Below, in pieces: positions 27,411 through 56,858 of a stretch of 64,000 nt of DNA. This DNA is from Comamonadaceae bacterium (lineage in GTDB: Bacteria > Pseudomonadota > Gammaproteobacteria > Burkholderiales > Burkholderiaceae_C). The notes under the pieces are model-generated. The model searched no databases and was not told the DNA's origin. It was given only the letters and a program-made list of their open reading frames with translations. The stretch's first letter is position 1. Every line of letters begins with the position of its first letter. Made by a program: the position numbers and the translations under genes. The stretch spans positions 1 to 64,000 of the forward strand of contig CANBUY010000005.1 of assembly GCA_947372745.1 (NCBI GenBank), given 5' to 3'.

Positions 27411-28319
27411 TTATGTTTTCCCTGTAATTTCTGTGAGCATGCGTGCCACCCCTTGCTGCCAAGAGGGCAGTGTTAAGCCGAAGGTGTTTTGCAGGCGCGT
27501 GGTGTCTAGGCGCGAGTTGAGCGGCCGCTGTGCTGGCGTGGGGTAGCTGGCGGTGGGCGTGGGCAGCACTTGCTCTGGGCCAGCCTTGAGCGACCAACCC
27601 AGCGCCTGCGCTTGGGCCAGCACGTAGCGTGCGTAGCCATGCCAAGTCGTTTCACCACTGGCCACGCAGTGGTAAAGCCCCGCCAACTCAGTTTGGACCA
27701 TTGCTTTTTTAATGGCGTGCGCTGTGACGTCGGCCAGCAATTCAGCCGAGGTGGGGGCGCCAAACTGGTCGTCAATCACCGTCAAGGTGTCGCGGTCCCC
27801 TGCCAGGCGCAACATGGTTTTGGCAAAGTTGCCGCCGCGTGCGGCATAGACCCAGCTGGTTCTAAAAATAAGGTGTTTGGCGCAGACTGCCACCAAGCGT
27901 TCGCCTTCAAGCTTGGTCTGGCCGTAAACGCTCAACGGCCCGGTGGCGTCCAGCTCGCGCCAGGGCTGCTGGCCACTGCCGTCAAACACATAGTCGGTGG
28001 AGAAGTGCACCAGCCAGGCACCCAGTTTTTGGGCCTCAGCGGCCAGAACACCAGGTGCCAGCGCGTTGAGAGTGCGGGCCAATTCGGGCTCAGACTCGGC
28101 CTTGTCGACGGCGGTGTGGGCGGCGGCATTAACGATCACATCAGGCTTCACCCGGCGCACGGTCGCGGCCAAACCAGCCAAGTCACTCAGGTCGCCACGC
28201 AATTGGTCAGGGTTGGATTGGGCATCCCGGCCCAGCGCCACCAACTCGCCCAGCACGCTCAAGGAGCGTTGCAACTCCCAGCCCAATTGACCGTCTTTGC
28301 CTAAGAGCAATATTTTCAT
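27411..28319 (-). CDS. rfbD: dTDP-4-dehydrorhamnose reductase
   Basis: 302 aa SDR-family reductase, last step to dTDP-L-rhamnose. N-terminus [19 protein letters not shown] with Rossmann GxxGxx[18 protein letters not shown] (catalytic Tyr-Lys) and [13 protein letters not shown] are typical. It begins 12 bp after the PIN toxin stop, so in the present arrangement it is downstream of three toxin-antitoxin modules instead of directly behind rfbB. Six codons of an older rfbD start survive at 29053-29070. Confidence 0.95.
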
Positions 28320-28331
28320 AAAAACTTCATT

Positions 28332-28745
28332 TCAACTTATCCAAGGGTTGATTACATCCAAACCTAGGTCCGCAAAGTCTCGTTCGTTGCGCGTCACCAT
28401 GCTCAAACCATGCTGCGCAGCGGTTGCCCCCAACAGACTGTCAATGGCTGGCAATGGACGACCCGCTGCGGCCACCAGACGGCCCCAGCGGTCTGCCACT
28501 GGCGCGTCAACAGGCAATATGCGGCCGGCAAAAAAACTTGGCAAGTCGGTCTCCAGCCAGTCCGTCAAGGCCATGCGCCGCTTGGCATCCAAGACACCTT
28601 CGATGCCTTTGCGCAACTCACCCAAGGTCAAAACACTCAAATACAGCGTGGACGCCGGTCTGCCTGAGAACCACTCGACCACACCAGCGTCAGGCGTCTT
28701 GCGGCGGAGTTCGGACAAGACGTTCGTGTCGAGCAAATAGCTCAA
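28332..28745 (-). CDS. PIN-domain toxin (VapC-type) of a type II toxin-antitoxin module
   Basis: 137 aa PIN-domain ribonuclease. The N-terminus SYLLDTNVLSELRR holds the first acidic residue (Asp6) and conserved Asn; later acidic positions in LGELRKGIE and VDAPVADRWG complete the metal site, and ATAAQHGLSMVTRNERDF carries the C-terminal conserved residues. The start is TTG (28745-28743), overlapping the antitoxin TGA (TTGA), so it is coupled to the antitoxin. VapC-type toxins cleave tRNA or rRNA; the target here is unknown. First of three modules stacked between rfbB and rfbD. Confidence 0.9.
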   Translation of the reverse strand: MSYLLDTNVLSELRRKTPDAGVVEWFSGRPASTLYLSVLTLGELRKGIEGVLDAKRRMALTDWLETDLPSFFAGRILPVDAPVADRWGRLVAAAGRPLPAIDSLLGATAAQHGLSMVTRNERDFADLGLDVINPWIS

Positions 28746-28993
28746 AACAACACCTCACGAGTCAAACTTATATCTCGATCGAGCGCGATGTCATCTGCGC
28801 CATATAGAGGAGACCTGCGCATGAAGTCGACCAAAGAATGGTCGTTGCCAGTCAGGCGTTCAAACATGGCGCGGGAGACCACCACCGCTACCGATTGGCC
28901 GTGCAGAGTGATGTTTTGCGGCCCCTCACTCTCAGCGCATTTGACGACTTCTGACAACCGGGCTTTGGCCTCTTGCATTTGCCATACGTGCAT
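28742..28993 (-). CDS. Phd/YefM-family antitoxin
   Basis: 83 aa antitoxin. The N-terminal Phd/YefM fold reads VWQMQEAKARLSEVVKCAE and QNITLHGQSVAVVVSR, which forms the DNA-binding dimer. The C-terminal 30 residues, rich in charged residues, would wrap and inhibit the PIN toxin encoded downstream. GGAGG lies 6 bases before ATG 28993. The upstream palindrome at 29014-29036 is the likely autoregulatory operator. Confidence 0.9.
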   Translation of the reverse strand: MHVWQMQEAKARLSEVVKCAESEGPQNITLHGQSVAVVVSRAMFERLTGNDHSLVDFMRRSPLYGADDIALDRDISLTREVLF

Positions 28994-29013
28994 GTTGAAC
29001 CTCCAAGTTAAAT

Positions 29014-29036
29014 ATTCTGACCAGACTAGTCAGAAT
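29014..29036. promoter_or_regulatory. Operator-like palindrome of the Phd/PIN module
   Basis: ATTCTGAC (29014-29021) and GTCAGAAT (29029-29036) form a perfect 8-bp dyad with a 7-base spacer, 21 bp upstream of the antitoxin start codon. Phd-type antitoxins repress their own operon through such sites. Confidence 0.65.
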
Positions 29037-29052
29037 GTAGCACAAGCCAGTG

Positions 29053-29219
29053 CAACAACAAAATCTTCATGCCTTAGTTGCCGTACTGCTTCGCCACCCA
29101 ATCCCGGTAACCGCCGCTGAGCACGTTGGCGACCCACTCGGAGTTATCTAAATACCACTGCACGGTTTTGCGGATGCCGGTCTCAAAGGTTTCGGCGTGG
29201 GTCCAGCCCAGCTCGGTTT
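29053..29219 (-). pseudogene. rfbB 3'-end fragment joined to first six codons of rfbD
   Basis: Minus-strand 29219-29074 encodes a copy of the RfbB C-terminus, recognisable as [16 protein letters not shown] and then [19 protein letters not shown] with the TAA at 29076-29074. Three bases on, ATGAAGATTTTGTTGTTG (29070-29053) matches MKILLL, the first six residues of RfbD, after which the sequence changes abruptly to the Phd/PIN promoter region. This is the original rfbB-rfbD junction with both genes broken off. It differs from the intact rfbB 3' end at about 15% of positions by eye. Confidence 0.85.
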
Positions 29220-29250
29220 CTTTACCACTGAATATTGAAAATAAGACGCT

Positions 29251-29658
29251 CTATGCTGCCCGAACTTCATTCAACAGATCGGGATGACGATCCAGCACCT
29301 TGAGTAGTTTGACCAGAGCCAAAGGCGGTTTAGTCTTGCCGTTCTCATAACGCGAGAAAGCGTTGATTCCACCACCGAAAATTTCAGCGGCTTCGCGTTG
29401 GCCGAGATCGAGCTTCTTGCGCACGGAGATGATGAATCCAGGATCAACAATGGCGGCATTAACCTGCTTATTGAACGCCTGCATTTCGCGCATGACACGC
29501 TCGGTTTCAGCCAAGTCGGTAATGGACTCATCACATGCAGGGCAAAAATCAGCCATCACCAAAGGAATGATGGTGGTTTCGCCCTTGTACGTATATGGGA
29601 GGTCGCGTGTATCGTGGATCAACTCCGCCGCTCCGCAAACAGGACATTTCATGTTCAT
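29251..29658 (-). CDS. mqsA: MqsA-type antitoxin (zinc-binding, HTH)
   Basis: 135 aa antitoxin and repressor. Zinc ligands Cys5, Cys8, Cys39 and Cys42 (CPVC and CPAC) are spaced as in E. coli MqsA. The C-terminal Xre-type helix-turn-helix reads QREAAEIFGGGINAFSRYENGKTKPP (about 87-112). Order toxin-antitoxin, with the antitoxin second, is the reversed order characteristic of mqsRA. Its ATG overlaps the mqsR stop (ATGA) and an AAGGAG at the end of mqsR acts as its ribosome site. Confidence 0.93.
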   Translation of the reverse strand: MNMKCPVCGAAELIHDTRDLPYTYKGETTIIPLVMADFCPACDESITDLAETERVMREMQAFNKQVNAAIVDPGFIISVRKKLDLGQREAAEIFGGGINAFSRYENGKTKPPLALVKLLKVLDRHPDLLNEVRAA

Positions 29659-29951
29659 AGCTCCTTGAAGGACACGATCAGCACGTCATTGATGACCGTT
29701 AATTTCAGATATACGTCGCCCGCCGGCGTGCCAGGGCGGTACACATCTTGCCAGACTGTGTGATCGGCGTGCGTAGTCATGCTCTTGTAGAAATCTTCAG
29801 TCGTAAGCGCCATTACTACAGCCAGCATGTCAGAGAGTTGCAGCCCCAACTCAGTGGCCCCGAGTCTAGCTGCACGTGTCGCACGCACTTTTCCAGCTTC
29901 TACCAAGGATTTCACCTCAGTCAGCCTGCAATGTGGGATACGTTTCTCCAT
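29655..29951 (-). CDS. mqsR: MqsR-type mRNA interferase toxin
   Basis: 98 aa toxin of the RelE-like fold MqsR family, which cleaves mRNA at GC-containing sites (GCU in E. coli). It begins MEKRIPHCRLTEVKSLVEAG and ends VSFKEL, both typical of the family, at the usual length of 98 residues. Upstream is an AACC...GGTT dyad resembling the E. coli MqsA operator. The module is bounded on both sides by rfbB 3'-end fragments. Confidence 0.93.
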   Translation of the reverse strand: MEKRIPHCRLTEVKSLVEAGKVRATRAARLGATELGLQLSDMLAVVMALTTEDFYKSMTTHADHTVWQDVYRPGTPAGDVYLKLTVINDVLIVSFKEL

Positions 29952-29962
29952 GGATGAATAAT

Positions 29963-29975
29963 AACCTAGTTGGTT
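29963..29975. promoter_or_regulatory. MqsA-type operator
   Basis: AACC-TAGTT-GGTT lies 11 bp upstream of the mqsR start codon. E. coli MqsA binds an AACCT...AGGTT palindrome in the same place, so this is probably the autoregulatory site. Confidence 0.55.
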
Positions 29976-30002
29976 TAATCTGACGGACTTTGTTGGCTAA
30001 TA

Positions 30003-30137
30003 CCAGCACGGCTTAGTTCCCGGACTGCTGCGCCACCCAATCCCTGTAACCTCCGCTGAGCACATTGGCCACCCAGTCGGGGTGGTCTAGGTACCACTGC
30101 ACGGTTTTGCGGATGCCGATCTCGAAGGTCTCGCCGG
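30003..30137 (-). pseudogene. Second rfbB 3'-end fragment
   Basis: This 135-bp stretch matches the intact rfbB 3' end (30877-31011) with about 11 differences. It encodes [20 protein letters not shown] and ends [13 protein letters not shown] with TAA at 30015-30013. The similarity continues about 10 bp past the stop (GCCGTGCTGG), then ends. The inner edge stops inside the codon region corresponding to about 45 residues from the RfbB C-terminus. It has no start and lies between mazF and mqsR. Confidence 0.88.
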
Positions 30138-30202
30138 AATACTCAGCAGCACCGCGACATATGCAAAAAAGCTGGTTGCACGACTGTGGAGCGCTGGAGA
30201 TA

Positions 30203-30526
30203 TCAGGCCAGCATCTCCAGCAATACATCGTGCCAGGCCTTTTCGTCAATCTTGCCCATTTTTTTACCCAATCTGATCTTATCAACGCATCGCACCTGAT
30301 CCAACAAAATACGGGCGGTCTTTCCCTGAAAAATTACATCGGGTCGACAACCCATCGGCTGACCGGCGCTGGTGATAGGGGCGATGATGACCCGGGGCAA
30401 CATAGCGTTCATATCGTTCGGTGACACCACCAATGCAGGGCGAGTCTTTTGAATCTCGCTGCCAACTACAGGATCAAGGTTGACCCAATAAACATCCCCG
30501 CGTAAAACAAGCACCCGGCTCACCAT
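30203..30526 (-). CDS. MazF/PemK-type mRNA interferase toxin
   Basis: 107 aa PemK/MazF-family endoribonuclease. Motifs: RGDVYWVNLDPVVGSEIQKTRPALVVSPN (about 9-37, with catalytic Arg in the KTRPALV segment), VIIAPITSAG and the conserved LDQVRCVDKIRL (about 75-86). ATG 30526 overlaps the antitoxin stop region by 7 bp. It is the toxin of the module nearest the intact rfbB. Confidence 0.93.
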   Translation of the reverse strand: MVSRVLVLRGDVYWVNLDPVVGSEIQKTRPALVVSPNDMNAMLPRVIIAPITSAGQPMGCRPDVIFQGKTARILLDQVRCVDKIRLGKKMGKIDEKAWHDVLLEMLA

Positions 30527-30783
30527 ACCCAGTCGCCGTCATCGGCCACGCGTGCGTCGCTCCAAGTCTGCGCGTCTACCTGCTCTTGAGCCAAGACGGC
30601 TTTTGATAACGTGGCCGACTGATCAAACCAACCATCACGCAGTTTGCGGTGAACGGGCCTAATCACAATCTGGCCTTCTTGCAACTCCATGTCGACCTGA
30701 TCTTCAATCTGGCAAGACACAAGAAAGGCAGCGGGTATCAACACCCCCCTTGAATTGCCTATTTTTCGCATAGATGTCAACAT
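30520..30783 (-). CDS. MazE/ChpI-type AbrB-fold antitoxin
   Basis: 87 aa antitoxin with an N-terminal SpoVT/AbrB swapped-hairpin domain (RKIGNSRGVLIPAAFL, about 6-21; IVIRPVHRKLRDGW, about 39-52) that binds DNA, and an acidic C-terminus (WSDARVADDGDW) that would block the MazF-type toxin. GAGGT precedes ATG 30783. A perfect GTTATAA dyad lies upstream at 30798-30816. Confidence 0.92.
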   Translation of the reverse strand: MLTSMRKIGNSRGVLIPAAFLVSCQIEDQVDMELQEGQIVIRPVHRKLRDGWFDQSATLSKAVLAQEQVDAQTWSDARVADDGDWVW

Positions 30784-30797
30784 GAAAGACCTCAGTA

Positions 30798-30816
30798 GTT
30801 ATAACTAAATTATAAC
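30798..30816. promoter_or_regulatory. Operator-like palindrome of the MazEF module
   Basis: GTTATAA-CTAAA-TTATAAC is a perfect 7-5-7 dyad, 14 bp upstream of the antitoxin start, in an AT-rich promoter-like stretch. MazE-type antitoxins bind such alternating palindromes. Confidence 0.6.
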
Positions 30817-30886
30817 AATAATATGCAGCAGTATGCATGAGGGCAGAAAAACTGATCTTGCCGCTGGAACCATGCCCCAGCACGGC

Positions 30887-31948
30887 TTAGTTCCCGTACT
30901 GCTGCGCCACCCAATCCCGGTAACCACCACTAAGCACATTGGCCACCCAGTCGGGGTTATCCAGGTACCACTGCACGGTTTTGCGGATGCCGGTCTCAAA
31001 GGTCTCGGCGGGGGTCCAGCCCAGCTCGATCTCCAGTTTGCGCGCATCAATGGCGTAGCGGCGGTCGTGGCCGGGGCGGTCGGTTACGTAGGTGATCTGG
31101 TCTTGGTAGGGCTTGCCATCTGAGCGGGGCTTGAGTTCATCGAGCAGCGCGCACACGGTGTGGACGATCTCCAGGTTGGGCTTCTCGTTCCAGCCGCCCA
31201 CGTTGTACACCTCGCCCAAGCGACCCGCCTCCAGCACCCGGCGGATGGCGCTACAGTGGTCGGTGACATACAGCCAGTCGCGAATTTGCTGGCCGTCGCC
31301 ATATACCGGCAGCGCCTTGCCGGCTTGCGCATTCACGATCATCAGCGGGATCAGCTTTTCTGGAAAGTGGAACGGACCATAGTTGTTGGAGCAGTTGGTG
31401 GTGAGCACCGGCAGGCCGTAGGTGTGGTGGTAGGCGCGCACCAAGTGGTCGCTGGCCGCTTTGCTGGCCGAGTACGGGCTATTGGGCTCGTAGCGATGGA
31501 CCTCGGTAAAGGCCGGGTCGGTCTTGCTCAAAGAGCCATAGACCTCGTCGGTGGAGACATGCAGAAAGCGGAAGGCGGCCTTACTGGTAGCCTCCAGGCC
31601 ACCCCAATACGCCCGCACCGCCTCCAGCAGGTTGAAGGTGCCCACAATATTGGTCTGAATGAACTCGCCCGGCCCGCTGATGGAGCGATCCACATGCGAT
31701 TCGGCGGCAAAGTTCAGCACGGCACGCGGTTGGTGCGTGGCCAACAACTGGTCAACCAGCGCGGCGTCGCCAAAATCGCCGTGCACAAACGTATGGCGCG
31801 CATCACCGTCGAGCGAGGTCAGGTTTTGCCGGTTGCCCGCGTAGGTGAGTTTGTCGAGGTTGATGACCGGCTCGTCTGAGGCACGGAGCCAGTCGAGTAC
31901 GAAGTTGCTGCCAATAAAGCCGGCACCGCCGGTGACGAGAATGGTCAT
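30887..31948 (-). CDS. rfbB: dTDP-glucose 4,6-dehydratase
   Basis: 353 aa extended SDR dehydratase, second step to dTDP-L-rhamnose. Motifs: [17 protein letters not shown] (4-20, NAD binding), [11 protein letters not shown] (catalytic Thr-Asp-Glu), [15 protein letters not shown] (Tyr-x3-Lys), [18 protein letters not shown] and [15 protein letters not shown]. Full length. Its 3' end, from ETFETGIRK to the TAA, exists in two further diverged copies at 30003-30137 and 29074-29219. Downstream on the strand come three toxin-antitoxin modules before rfbD. Confidence 0.96.
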
Positions 31949-31955
31949 TTAATTT

Positions 31956-32303
31956 TTATCCCCGAATATTAAAAACTGGTTTTTTAACTGGCGCCATGGC
32001 CCGTCGCAAACCCTCACTTACCGACACAGGCGGCACCCAGCCGAGCAAATTGCGGGCTTTGGAAATATCAAGCTGCAAATTGCAGCGCAAGCGCTGCACC
32101 GCCTCCACCCCGCCCAGTAAAGTGACCCCCGCTTGCAAGGTCAAAACAGAAATGGGCAGAAAACGAGTCGGCACCCCGGAGGCTTGTAACATGCCGCGCA
32201 CCAGCTCGGTGGTGGACAGGTCTTTCCCGTCACTGACAAAAAAAGTCTGGTTGACGGCTTGGGGGTGGGTCAACAAAGAATACGAGCAAGTGTCATTTGA
32301 CAT
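31956..32303 (-). pseudogene. C-terminal remnant of an NAD-dependent sugar epimerase/dehydratase
   Basis: 115-codon open frame whose residues 12-115 match the C-terminal third of an SDR-type nucleotide-sugar epimerase: HPQAVNQTFFVSDGKDLSTTEL, then QRLRCNLQLDISKARNLLGW and PPVSVSEGLRRAM. There is no Rossmann domain or YxxxK. The first 11 residues come from sequence fused at the break point beside the glycosyltransferase gene, whose stop it overlaps. Full-length relatives in similar clusters sit next to the initiating sugar transferase. This looks like a scar from replacing an older O-antigen cassette. Confidence 0.8.
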
Positions 32304-49307: not shown

Positions 49308-49380
49308 GGGTCAGAGCCCAATTTCGTTTGGCGCACCTTTCGCCGGTGAGTTTTTTGTCCTGAATTGGGATCTCACCCCC
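49308..49380. repeat. Imperfect-palindrome repeat, single copy
   Basis: Begins GGGTCAGAGCCCAATTTCG and ends TGAATTGGGATCTCACCCCC. It has the same end structure as the two elements at 56595-56670 and 56733-56807. A solitary partial end (ATTGGGGTCAGATTCCAATT, 49420-49439) follows. It occupies most of the gap between the O-antigen locus and the M16 peptidase gene. Confidence 0.85.
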
Positions 49381-49445
49381 ATTCAGCTCTGCTGCCTCCG
49401 ATGAGGATTTTTTAAATCAATTGGGGTCAGATTCCAATTAATTGA

Positions 49446-56538: not shown

Positions 56539-56807
56539 GGGGGTCAGATCCCAATTCAGGACAACATTATTTCCGGCGAAAGATAGTTAGGCTTGGGGGT
56601 CGGATCCCAATTCAGGACAATATTGTTTCCGGCGCTACATAGCAAAGAACGAAATTGGGCTCTGACCCCCAGGCCGTTCTTGCCGGAGAAAAATACTGCT
56701 ACTGGCAAGTCTTGGCTTCGGCCCGCCGATTAGGGGTCAGAGCCCAATTTCGTTTAACGTTACTTATCTCCGGTGACAGCTTTTTCCTGAATTGGGATCT
56801 GACCCCC
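56539..56807. repeat. Cluster of imperfect-palindrome (REP/BIME-like) repeats
   Basis: This 337-bp gene-free gap (56522-56858) holds a fragment (56539-56578) and two full elements, 56595-56670 and 56733-56807, in opposite orientation. Each element joins a GGGGTCAGATCCCAATTCAGGA-type end (in two pieces here, GGGGTCAGATCCC and AATTCAGGA) to an inverted GGGGTCAGAGCCCAATTTCG end around a CCGG-containing middle. The same element is at 49308-49380. The arrangement resembles REP pairs mobilised by tyrosine Y1 transposases; none is encoded here. Confidence 0.85.
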
Positions 56808-56858
56808 AATCAGCTTTGTCACCATGGACTACCGAGATGTATTCGCCAAGGGTGGTGG

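Follow-up and report, generated by a model that had tools for sequence, protein, structure and literature searches.

Three toxin–antitoxin modules separated by copies of the rfbB gene end between rfbB and rfbD of a Comamonadaceae bacterium

Arrays of unrelated toxin–antitoxin (TA) modules occur as cassettes of chromosomal integrons, where the TA genes are thought to stabilize the array, and integrative elements inserted at the 3′ end of a conserved gene keep or re-supply the end of that target gene. To our knowledge, the route by which TA modules of chromosomes pass from one genome to another in the absence of a transposase or integrase is not settled. According to the accessible part of PMC3874152, restriction–modification (RM) genes insert with long target duplications of variable length (Nobusato et al., 2000; Furuta et al., 2010; both as cited there), and the accessible part of PMC5361080 describes sequential displacement, proposed to be akin to homology-facilitated illegitimate recombination, for the immunity-gene arrays of the type VI secretion system (T6SS) in Vibrio cholerae. 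Our literature search found no paper joining toxin–antitoxin with homology-facilitated illegitimate recombination; the sole paper found that joins toxin–antitoxin, target duplication, and illegitimate recombination, to judge from its accessible part, was PMC3031569. Here, we analyze 64,000 nucleotides of DNA from a Rhodoferax-like Comamonadaceae bacterium (assembly GCA_947372745.1, contig CANBUY010000005.1, positions 1 to 64,000; hereafter the window), in which three complete TA modules lie between rfbB and rfbD and are separated by copies of the rfbB 3′ end. Our preferred explanation, which we consider probable, is that TA modules inserted stepwise at a gene end and duplicated a long piece of the target, possibly through homology-facilitated illegitimate recombination, and that addiction would have retained them.

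All features of the array lie on the minus strand, in the order rfbB, mazEF, rfbB tail 1, mqsRA, rfbB tail 2, phd/PIN, rfbD, rfbA, rfbC. The array is bounded by an intact rfbB (30887..31948), which encodes a 353-aa dTDP-glucose 4,6-dehydratase (Pfam GDP_Man_Dehyd/Epimerase), and by an intact rfbD (27411..28319; dTDP-4-dehydrorhamnose reductase, assigned by open reading frame (ORF) and Pfam), with rfbA and rfbC beyond it. Tail 1 (30003..30137) consists of the final 125 bp of rfbB plus 10 bp of downstream flank and was 91.9% identical to the rfbB end over 135 bp (11 of 123 compared positions differed). Tail 2 (29073..29215), recognized as a DNA match to the rfbB end, was 90.2% identical to it over 143 bp (14 of 138 compared positions differed), and the two tails were 86.4% identical to each other over 125 bp. 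The first-pass annotation, made from the sequence alone, had claimed three complete, unrelated modules separated by rfbB 3′ copies that differ by roughly 8–15%; each element was found in its place, and the copies measured 8–14% different. Apart from one distant repeat of 75–85 bp, the tails were the only self-matches of at least 50 bp (E 1e-6) in the window, which excludes chance, and an rfbB query against the genome itself returned the intact gene and both tails, plus two further matches that were short and weak. The tails start at different rfbB positions (921 and 938), so the break points share no constant core site. The modules are placed between direct target copies of about 100 bp or more and of variable length (135 and 143 bp), as in long target duplication, and a remnant of the resident gene end lies downstream of the new module, as in arrays attributed to homology-facilitated illegitimate recombination.

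Two details that had escaped the first-pass annotation bear on the origin of the tails. Tail 1 and the intact rfbB have 10 nt in common past the stop codon, and tail 2 is followed by TAA-GGC-ATGAAGATTTTGTTGTTG, which is a native rfbB–rfbD boundary. The 18-nt remnant ATGAAGATTTTGTTGTTG (29053..29070, recognized by eye) agrees letter for letter with the start of rfbD behind rfbB in another genome of the same genus (locus L153, G444) and matches the start of the window's intact rfbD at 13 of 18 positions. Because tail 2 is joined to a native rfbD start, tail 2 would most simply be the original rfbB end with the original rfbD start, and the intervening DNA up to the intact rfbB would be later. The phd/PIN unit starts ~10 nt past this remnant. 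A parallel was found in L468, where an NTP_transf_8 gene lies between a 79-bp copy of the rfbD start (93.7%) and the intact rfbD.

Five of the six TA genes passed their curated Pfam cut-offs (PIN, PhdYeFM, MqsA, MqsR, and PemK), and MazE fell slightly under. The modules comprise a mazE-type antitoxin (30520..30783; MazE_antitoxin, E 1.3e-4, 22.3 bits against a cut-off of 24.7) adjoining a mazF/pemK-type toxin (30203..30526; PemK_toxin, E 7e-25); an mqsR toxin (29655..29951; MqsR_toxin, E 6e-35) and mqsA antitoxin (29251..29658; MqsA_antitoxin, E 1.7e-63); and a phd/yefM-type antitoxin (28742..28993; PhdYeFM_antitox, E 2.5e-12) and PIN-domain (VapC-type) toxin (28332..28745; PIN, E 7e-16). Both genes of every module match a TA family and are adjacent and co-directional, as predicted for type II TA systems. 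A palindromic operator had also been claimed for each module, and an inverted repeat does lie upstream of each, although these operators were read by eye and are putative: GTTATAA/TTATAAC within GTTATAACTAAATTATAAC for mazE (30798..30816), AACC/GGTT within AACCTAGTTGGTT for mqsR (29963..29975), and ATTCTGAC/GTCAGAAT within ATTCTGACCAGACTAGTCAGAAT for phd (29014..29036), all in plus-strand writing. As the first-pass annotation had stated, no integrase was present among the genes we could recognize; neither an integrase nor a transposase was identified in the neighboring genes (24.1–36.2 kb of the window), two of the nine scanned genes having no Pfam match.

Comparison with other loci indicated where the units end. 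Among the best 25 of 41 loci, the motif upstream of mqsR was the same or similar in relatives' mqsR loci, and DNA homology of mqsRA reached at most to 29982, at the operator, on one side and to 29247, directly behind the stop codon of mqsA, on the other. Homology of mazEF to other loci spanned 30819–30202, and that of phd/PIN to relatives spanned at most 29043–28340. Because homology ends near operator and stop codon, the mobile units are bare, with an operator plus two genes in 0.6–0.7 kb. The distribution of mqsRA is patchy: MqsA relatives (E ≤1e-15) were found in 61 of 399 family genomes, and of the four other genomes of the same genus in that draw, G346 had a distant match (38%) and three had none. 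Searches of plasmid records with MqsR, MazF, and PIN identified no vehicle; MqsR relatives occurred in 71 records at up to 83% identity, and MazF and PIN relatives were all below 60% identity. The window's own genome encodes a second MazF, 83% identical to that of the window (G000:C2:74376-74690), which had no flanking repeats in the survey described below.

Like chromosomal integron cassettes, the locus is an array of unrelated TA modules, but its separators are the host's own rfbB coding sequence, and no integron integrase was recognized between 24 and 36 kb of the window. As with integrative elements at gene 3′ ends, the end of the target gene is kept or re-supplied, but here there is no recognized integrase and no fixed core, and the units are 0.6–0.7 kb. 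The locus resembles RM insertion, as the accessible part of PMC3874152 presents it, in combining a presumably addictive two-gene module that has no mobility gene with direct target copies of the order of 100 bp; it differs in that the cargo is type II TA, three modules are stacked in a readable order, and the copies have diverged. The V. cholerae T6SS arrays, to the extent covered in the accessible part of PMC5361080, are likewise explained by serial one-sided events, proposed to act like homology-facilitated illegitimate recombination, in which the 3′ end of a displaced gene is moved back and arrays grow. There, however, the effector is displaced and immunity genes are left, whereas here the biosynthesis gene is intact and complete TA modules are added.

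A tree of 34 rfbB ends (32 of them different) placed the three window ends in one clade (support 93/87), in which tail 2 split first. End branches were 0.011 for the intact rfbB, 0.091 for tail 1, and 0.066 for tail 2. Given 141 columns and an inner-fork support of 95/57, the branching order, with tail 2 departing before tail 1 and rfbB separated, is likely but not certain. The first-pass annotation had derived the tails from different imported rfbB alleles. In that form the claim is not supported, as the single clade, the long tail branches, and the short branch of the intact gene make an origin from different alleles unnecessary. Serial events in one lineage, with copying and subsequent decay, account for the tails no less well than different donor alleles would. 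When rfbB was compared in sliding pieces, the best-scoring relative shifted from piece to piece by small margins. In six pooled, non-independent gene/tail pairs from four genomes, 61 of 97 differences fell at third codon positions, an excess over what decay spread evenly across the three positions would give (p = 3e-9); either the copies had separated earlier, while still coding, or evolution of the intact gene went on. At two other loci, a glnS-type gene with an intact end 84% identical to another genome's gene and 75% to its own tail (L245) and a biotin carboxylase fragment 76% identical to the neighboring gene and equally so to another genus (L332), such identities make import possible.

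On the preferred reading of stepwise insertion, the first of the two rfbB-end insertions would have been that of mqsRA, with the original rfbB end, not yet parted from the rfbD start, surviving as tail 2; mazEF, likewise inserted behind rfbB, would have come second and given rise to tail 1; and phd/PIN, whatever its place in this order, would have entered at the rfbD start, with 18 nt of an rfbD start left upstream. The rfbB end would have been duplicated in at least the mqsRA and mazEF steps, and rfbB and rfbD would have remained whole. In the most likely form of joining, an incoming strand carrying rfbB and a TA module would pair one-sidedly with the resident gene by homology, its other end would be joined illegitimately just upstream of the gene end, and the resident end would be left downstream. 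Insertion at a staggered break with a long target duplication would give the same product, and the present data do not distinguish these two routes. Recombination between the duplicated ends would be expected to remove the module, but the toxin would punish TA loss, and arrays would thus tend to grow and persist. The first-pass annotation had proposed serial recombination that brought TA modules in behind an rfbB tail; the serial events and the arrival of modules at a gene end are supported, and the donor-allele origin of the window tails, in that form, is not. The modules may act as addiction locks on the O-antigen locus, as that annotation had also suggested.

Flanking duplications also occur at a share of TA modules elsewhere. 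We surveyed loci, mostly of 3–4 kb, and scored those in which the start of the match lay between the two copies of a direct repeat (length ≥50 bp, E ≤1e-6, identity ≥65%); the window's own three modules were excluded, and other loci of its genome were included. Such repeats flanked 22 of the 161 TA loci surveyed and 1 of the 147 controls (Fisher p = 4.2e-6). When the comparison was restricted to the genus (HigB, PIN, and BrnT against rfbB, ABM, and GNAT), the counts were 15/89 and 0/89 (p = 3.2e-5). By set, flanked loci numbered 4/20 for MqsR (phylum), 7/30 for HigB-type PF05973 (genus), 2/29 for MqsA (family), 1/23 for MazF (family), 2/29 for PIN (genus), and 6/30 for BrnT (genus), against 0/29 for rfbB in the family and 0/29 in the genus, 1/29 for ugd (family), 0/30 for ABM (genus), and 0/30 for GNAT (genus); the single flanked ugd locus is the G346 array described below. 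The rfbB and ugd control genes are longer. Loci shorter than 2.5 kb numbered 25 among the TA sets and 4 among the controls, an imbalance that makes repeats harder to detect at TA loci. With larger stretches, 12 of 40 HigB-type loci were flanked within 4 kb. Searched against 512 collected loci, each flanking repeat matched at most two loci outside its own locus or the larger re-fetch of it, except the ugd tail (39 loci), so within this sample the repeats do not behave as dispersed elements. A looser repeat search around mqsRA (E 0.05) was abandoned because 30 of 150 mismatched pairs also matched, and the stricter matches were used alone.

Several results weigh against our preferred reading or limit its reach. 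No such repeat was found at 139 of the 161 TA loci. Inspection by eye gave clear gene ends at 11 of the 22 flanked loci and an unclear picture at the other 11, which include L218, probably an integrase island. The survey used best-scoring matches and not random draws, and some genomes contributed to several sets. When any repeat pair in whole loci of up to 16 kb was counted, TA loci (10/41) did not differ from controls (4/15); only repeat pairs flanking the module discriminated the two. The tree and the codon data pull different ways on import versus copying in situ, and the joining chemistry is something we infer.

The same build appeared at other genes; names such as HigBA-type, and the core-gene roles given here, are labels that we presume from Pfam matches. 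A genome of the same genus, G346 (L137), has a ugd ORF lacking the N-terminal part, followed by a BrnT gene, a ugd tail (90%), a HigBA-type pair, and a second ugd tail (90%). Four ugd tails lie among MazEF, mqsA with a damaged mqsR (by eye), and YafQ- and ParE-type genes in G101 (L066), a decayed 8-kb contig that has no intact ugd. Four AAA_12 helicase tails lie among AbiE, BrnT, Fic, PIN, mqsRA, HigBA-type, and MazEF modules in G385 (L096; G385:C3:1438700-1454700), where about eight different TA modules and the four tails occupy 9 kb and three tails start within a few bases of one another. No intact helicase corresponding to these tails was present in L096 or in 10 kb on either side (36 kb; loci L181 and L182 were scanned for this helicase only). 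Shorter versions include a TPP-enzyme gene, cut by the contig start, with a HigBA-type pair, a 123-bp tail, and mqsRA (G317, L099); an EamA gene with a HigBA-type pair and a 487-bp tail at 94.3% (G430, L262); and a DegT aminotransferase gene with mqsRA and a 162-bp copy across the gene end (82.7%; L201). Tails accompany BrnT genes at an ABC ATPase gene (L416) and a MacB/FtsX permease gene (L406), the glnS-type tail of L245 lies beyond a HigB-type gene, and 5′-end versions occur at mutL (L367) and at genes for a biotin carboxylase (L332) and an aminotransferase (L076); for L416, L406, L245, L332, and L367, genes were assigned by Pfam and architecture by eye.

Near-identical repeats were seen in L069 (214 bp, 99.5%) and L076 (101 bp, 97%). 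The L069 copies (G027; 1250-1463 and 2368-2581) bracket a ParE-like pair, recognized by eye, and adjoin a truncated mqsR; this duplication is apparently a recent event. Small ORFs that by eye are TA or TA-like lie downstream of a glnS-type gene in G442 (L266, 1-2700), and together with L245 they suggest that the glnS-type gene end may be a second recurrent landing site. Of thirteen regions that had a gap or whose ugd or rfbB tail ORFs were short or occurred twice, four contained a direct repeat and nine contained none. The repeats of L080 were rejected as gene tails; by eye they are repeated protein stretches.

Most relatives have an uninterrupted rfbB–rfbD junction. Among 80 named rfbB loci, rfbD lay downstream in 70, with a gap of ≤60 bp in 60, 61–200 bp in 3, and >200 bp in 7, so uninterrupted sites of the kind that a target duplication presupposes are present. 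The closest protein matches of the window's rfbB among named loci were from Rhodoferax (90 and 89%; R. antarcticus, 84%), and two uncultured beta-proteobacteria ranked between those Rhodoferax matches. Where the gap exceeded 200 bp, it held a PIN gene (Pfam) behind a small MazE/VapB-like ORF (by eye) in L444 and L460; a PIN gene, a nucleotidyltransferase just under the cut-off, and an ORF with no match in R. antarcticus (L437); NTP_transf_8 in L468 and L511; DUF4160 in L481; and no recognized family in L496. Within the genus, 3 of 29 loci had a gap of ~700 bp with a PIN gene (L169 and L176 by Pfam, L178 by eye). The first-pass annotation had called for a search of this junction in relatives for TA genes and rfbB tails, and it turned up the former, or genes like them, and none of the latter. 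No rfbB tail lay downstream in any of the 80 named loci, four of which had <1.2 kb of downstream sequence, and no extra tail was found at the DNA level in 59 other genomes of the genus, although diverged tails could escape this search and 5 of 60 genomes gave no match at all. When 399 family genomes were searched with the tail peptide, only the window genome had three matches and 14 others had two; among the matches listed, five two-match genomes had them on different contigs or 158 kb apart. As no other rfbB tail was found among the searched relatives, rfbB appears to be rare as a tail-leaving target, though the pattern is not rare. The first-pass annotation had also named one fixed ancestral block, with tails tracking the local rfbB, as the finding that would overturn it; the tails do track the local rfbB, but the tree shows two separate splits, and the block was seen in no searched relative.

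Among other accounts, insertion of the RM type, in which a staggered or re-synthesized break produces a long target duplication and the repeats are true recipient copies that later decayed, is a serious contender that we hold at somewhat below an even chance. It accommodates the single clade of the three window copies with its long tail branches, the near-identical repeats of L069 (214 bp, 99.5%) and L076 (101 bp, 97%), and the 5′-end versions at L332, L367, and L076, but sits poorly with the third-position excess (61/97 in six pairs) and with the L245 and L332 fragments, whose identity to the gene of another genome is at least as high as that to the adjacent gene. O-antigen loci recombine often, and this general knowledge, together with the PIN genes at the junction in L169, L176, L444, L460, and L437 (Pfam) and L178 (by eye) and the nucleotidyltransferase pair in L437, lends some plausibility to serial import by ordinary double crossover from donors that already carried TA genes between rfbB and rfbD, as the first-pass annotation supposed. 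We nevertheless regard such import as unlikely: a clean replacement leaves no tails, the window ends form one clade, and donors with tails were seen neither in the 80 named loci nor, at the DNA level, in the 59 genus relatives.

Integrase-dependent elements that insert at the 3′ end of a gene typically re-supply that end, and L218, with an integrase-like ORF (by eye) and an 82-bp repeat at 98.8%, looks like one. That the window array arose from such elements with later loss of the integrase is nonetheless very improbable, as no integrase was recognized in neighboring genes, break points are variable, many different target genes and both gene ends are used, and the units hold a TA pair only. 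An assembly artefact or chimeric contig would be conceivable in a metagenome-derived draft of 217 contigs (85.8% complete, 6.4% contaminated), and this locus is known from one assembly. The copies differ by 8–14%, however, and are therefore not a single stretch repeated by mistake; a native boundary lies behind tail 2; and builds of a related kind are present in genomes with good assemblies (L096 on a 2.58-Mb contig, L252 on a 2.99-Mb contig). We give an artefact hardly any credence.

Two features of the window stand apart from the array. An ORF of 115 aa (31956-32303, minus strand), which lies between rfbB and a glycosyltransferase gene, has no Pfam match and by eye looks like the C-terminal piece of an NAD-dependent epimerase; the window contains no second good copy of it. 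The distant 75–85 bp repeat has direct and inverted copies (82% and 77%) at 49308-49391, 56734-56818, and 56594-56668 and is unrelated to the rfb locus.

Stepwise insertion with duplication of a gene end would leave readable scars in the form of flanking host duplications, a signature countable in any genome, and would give an order of arrival at one locus. It predicts that tail-by-tail deletion would be lethal or growth-arresting unless antitoxin is supplied. The landing sites include an O-antigen precursor operon and core genes, assigned by Pfam as glutaminyl-tRNA-synthetase-type, mutL, and biotin carboxylase. A broader and quite tentative extension is that TA modules are a class of mobile unit that has no mobility gene and moves behind or before ordinary genes by gene-end recombination, duplicating an end each time. 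Addiction would block excision, a ratchet would build arrays whose tails are a dated record of arrival, and this process might explain a substantial part of the chromosomal TA loci of Pseudomonadota. Similar leftovers at a fair share of TA pairs in related bacteria hint that these pairs may spread with no mobility gene of their own.

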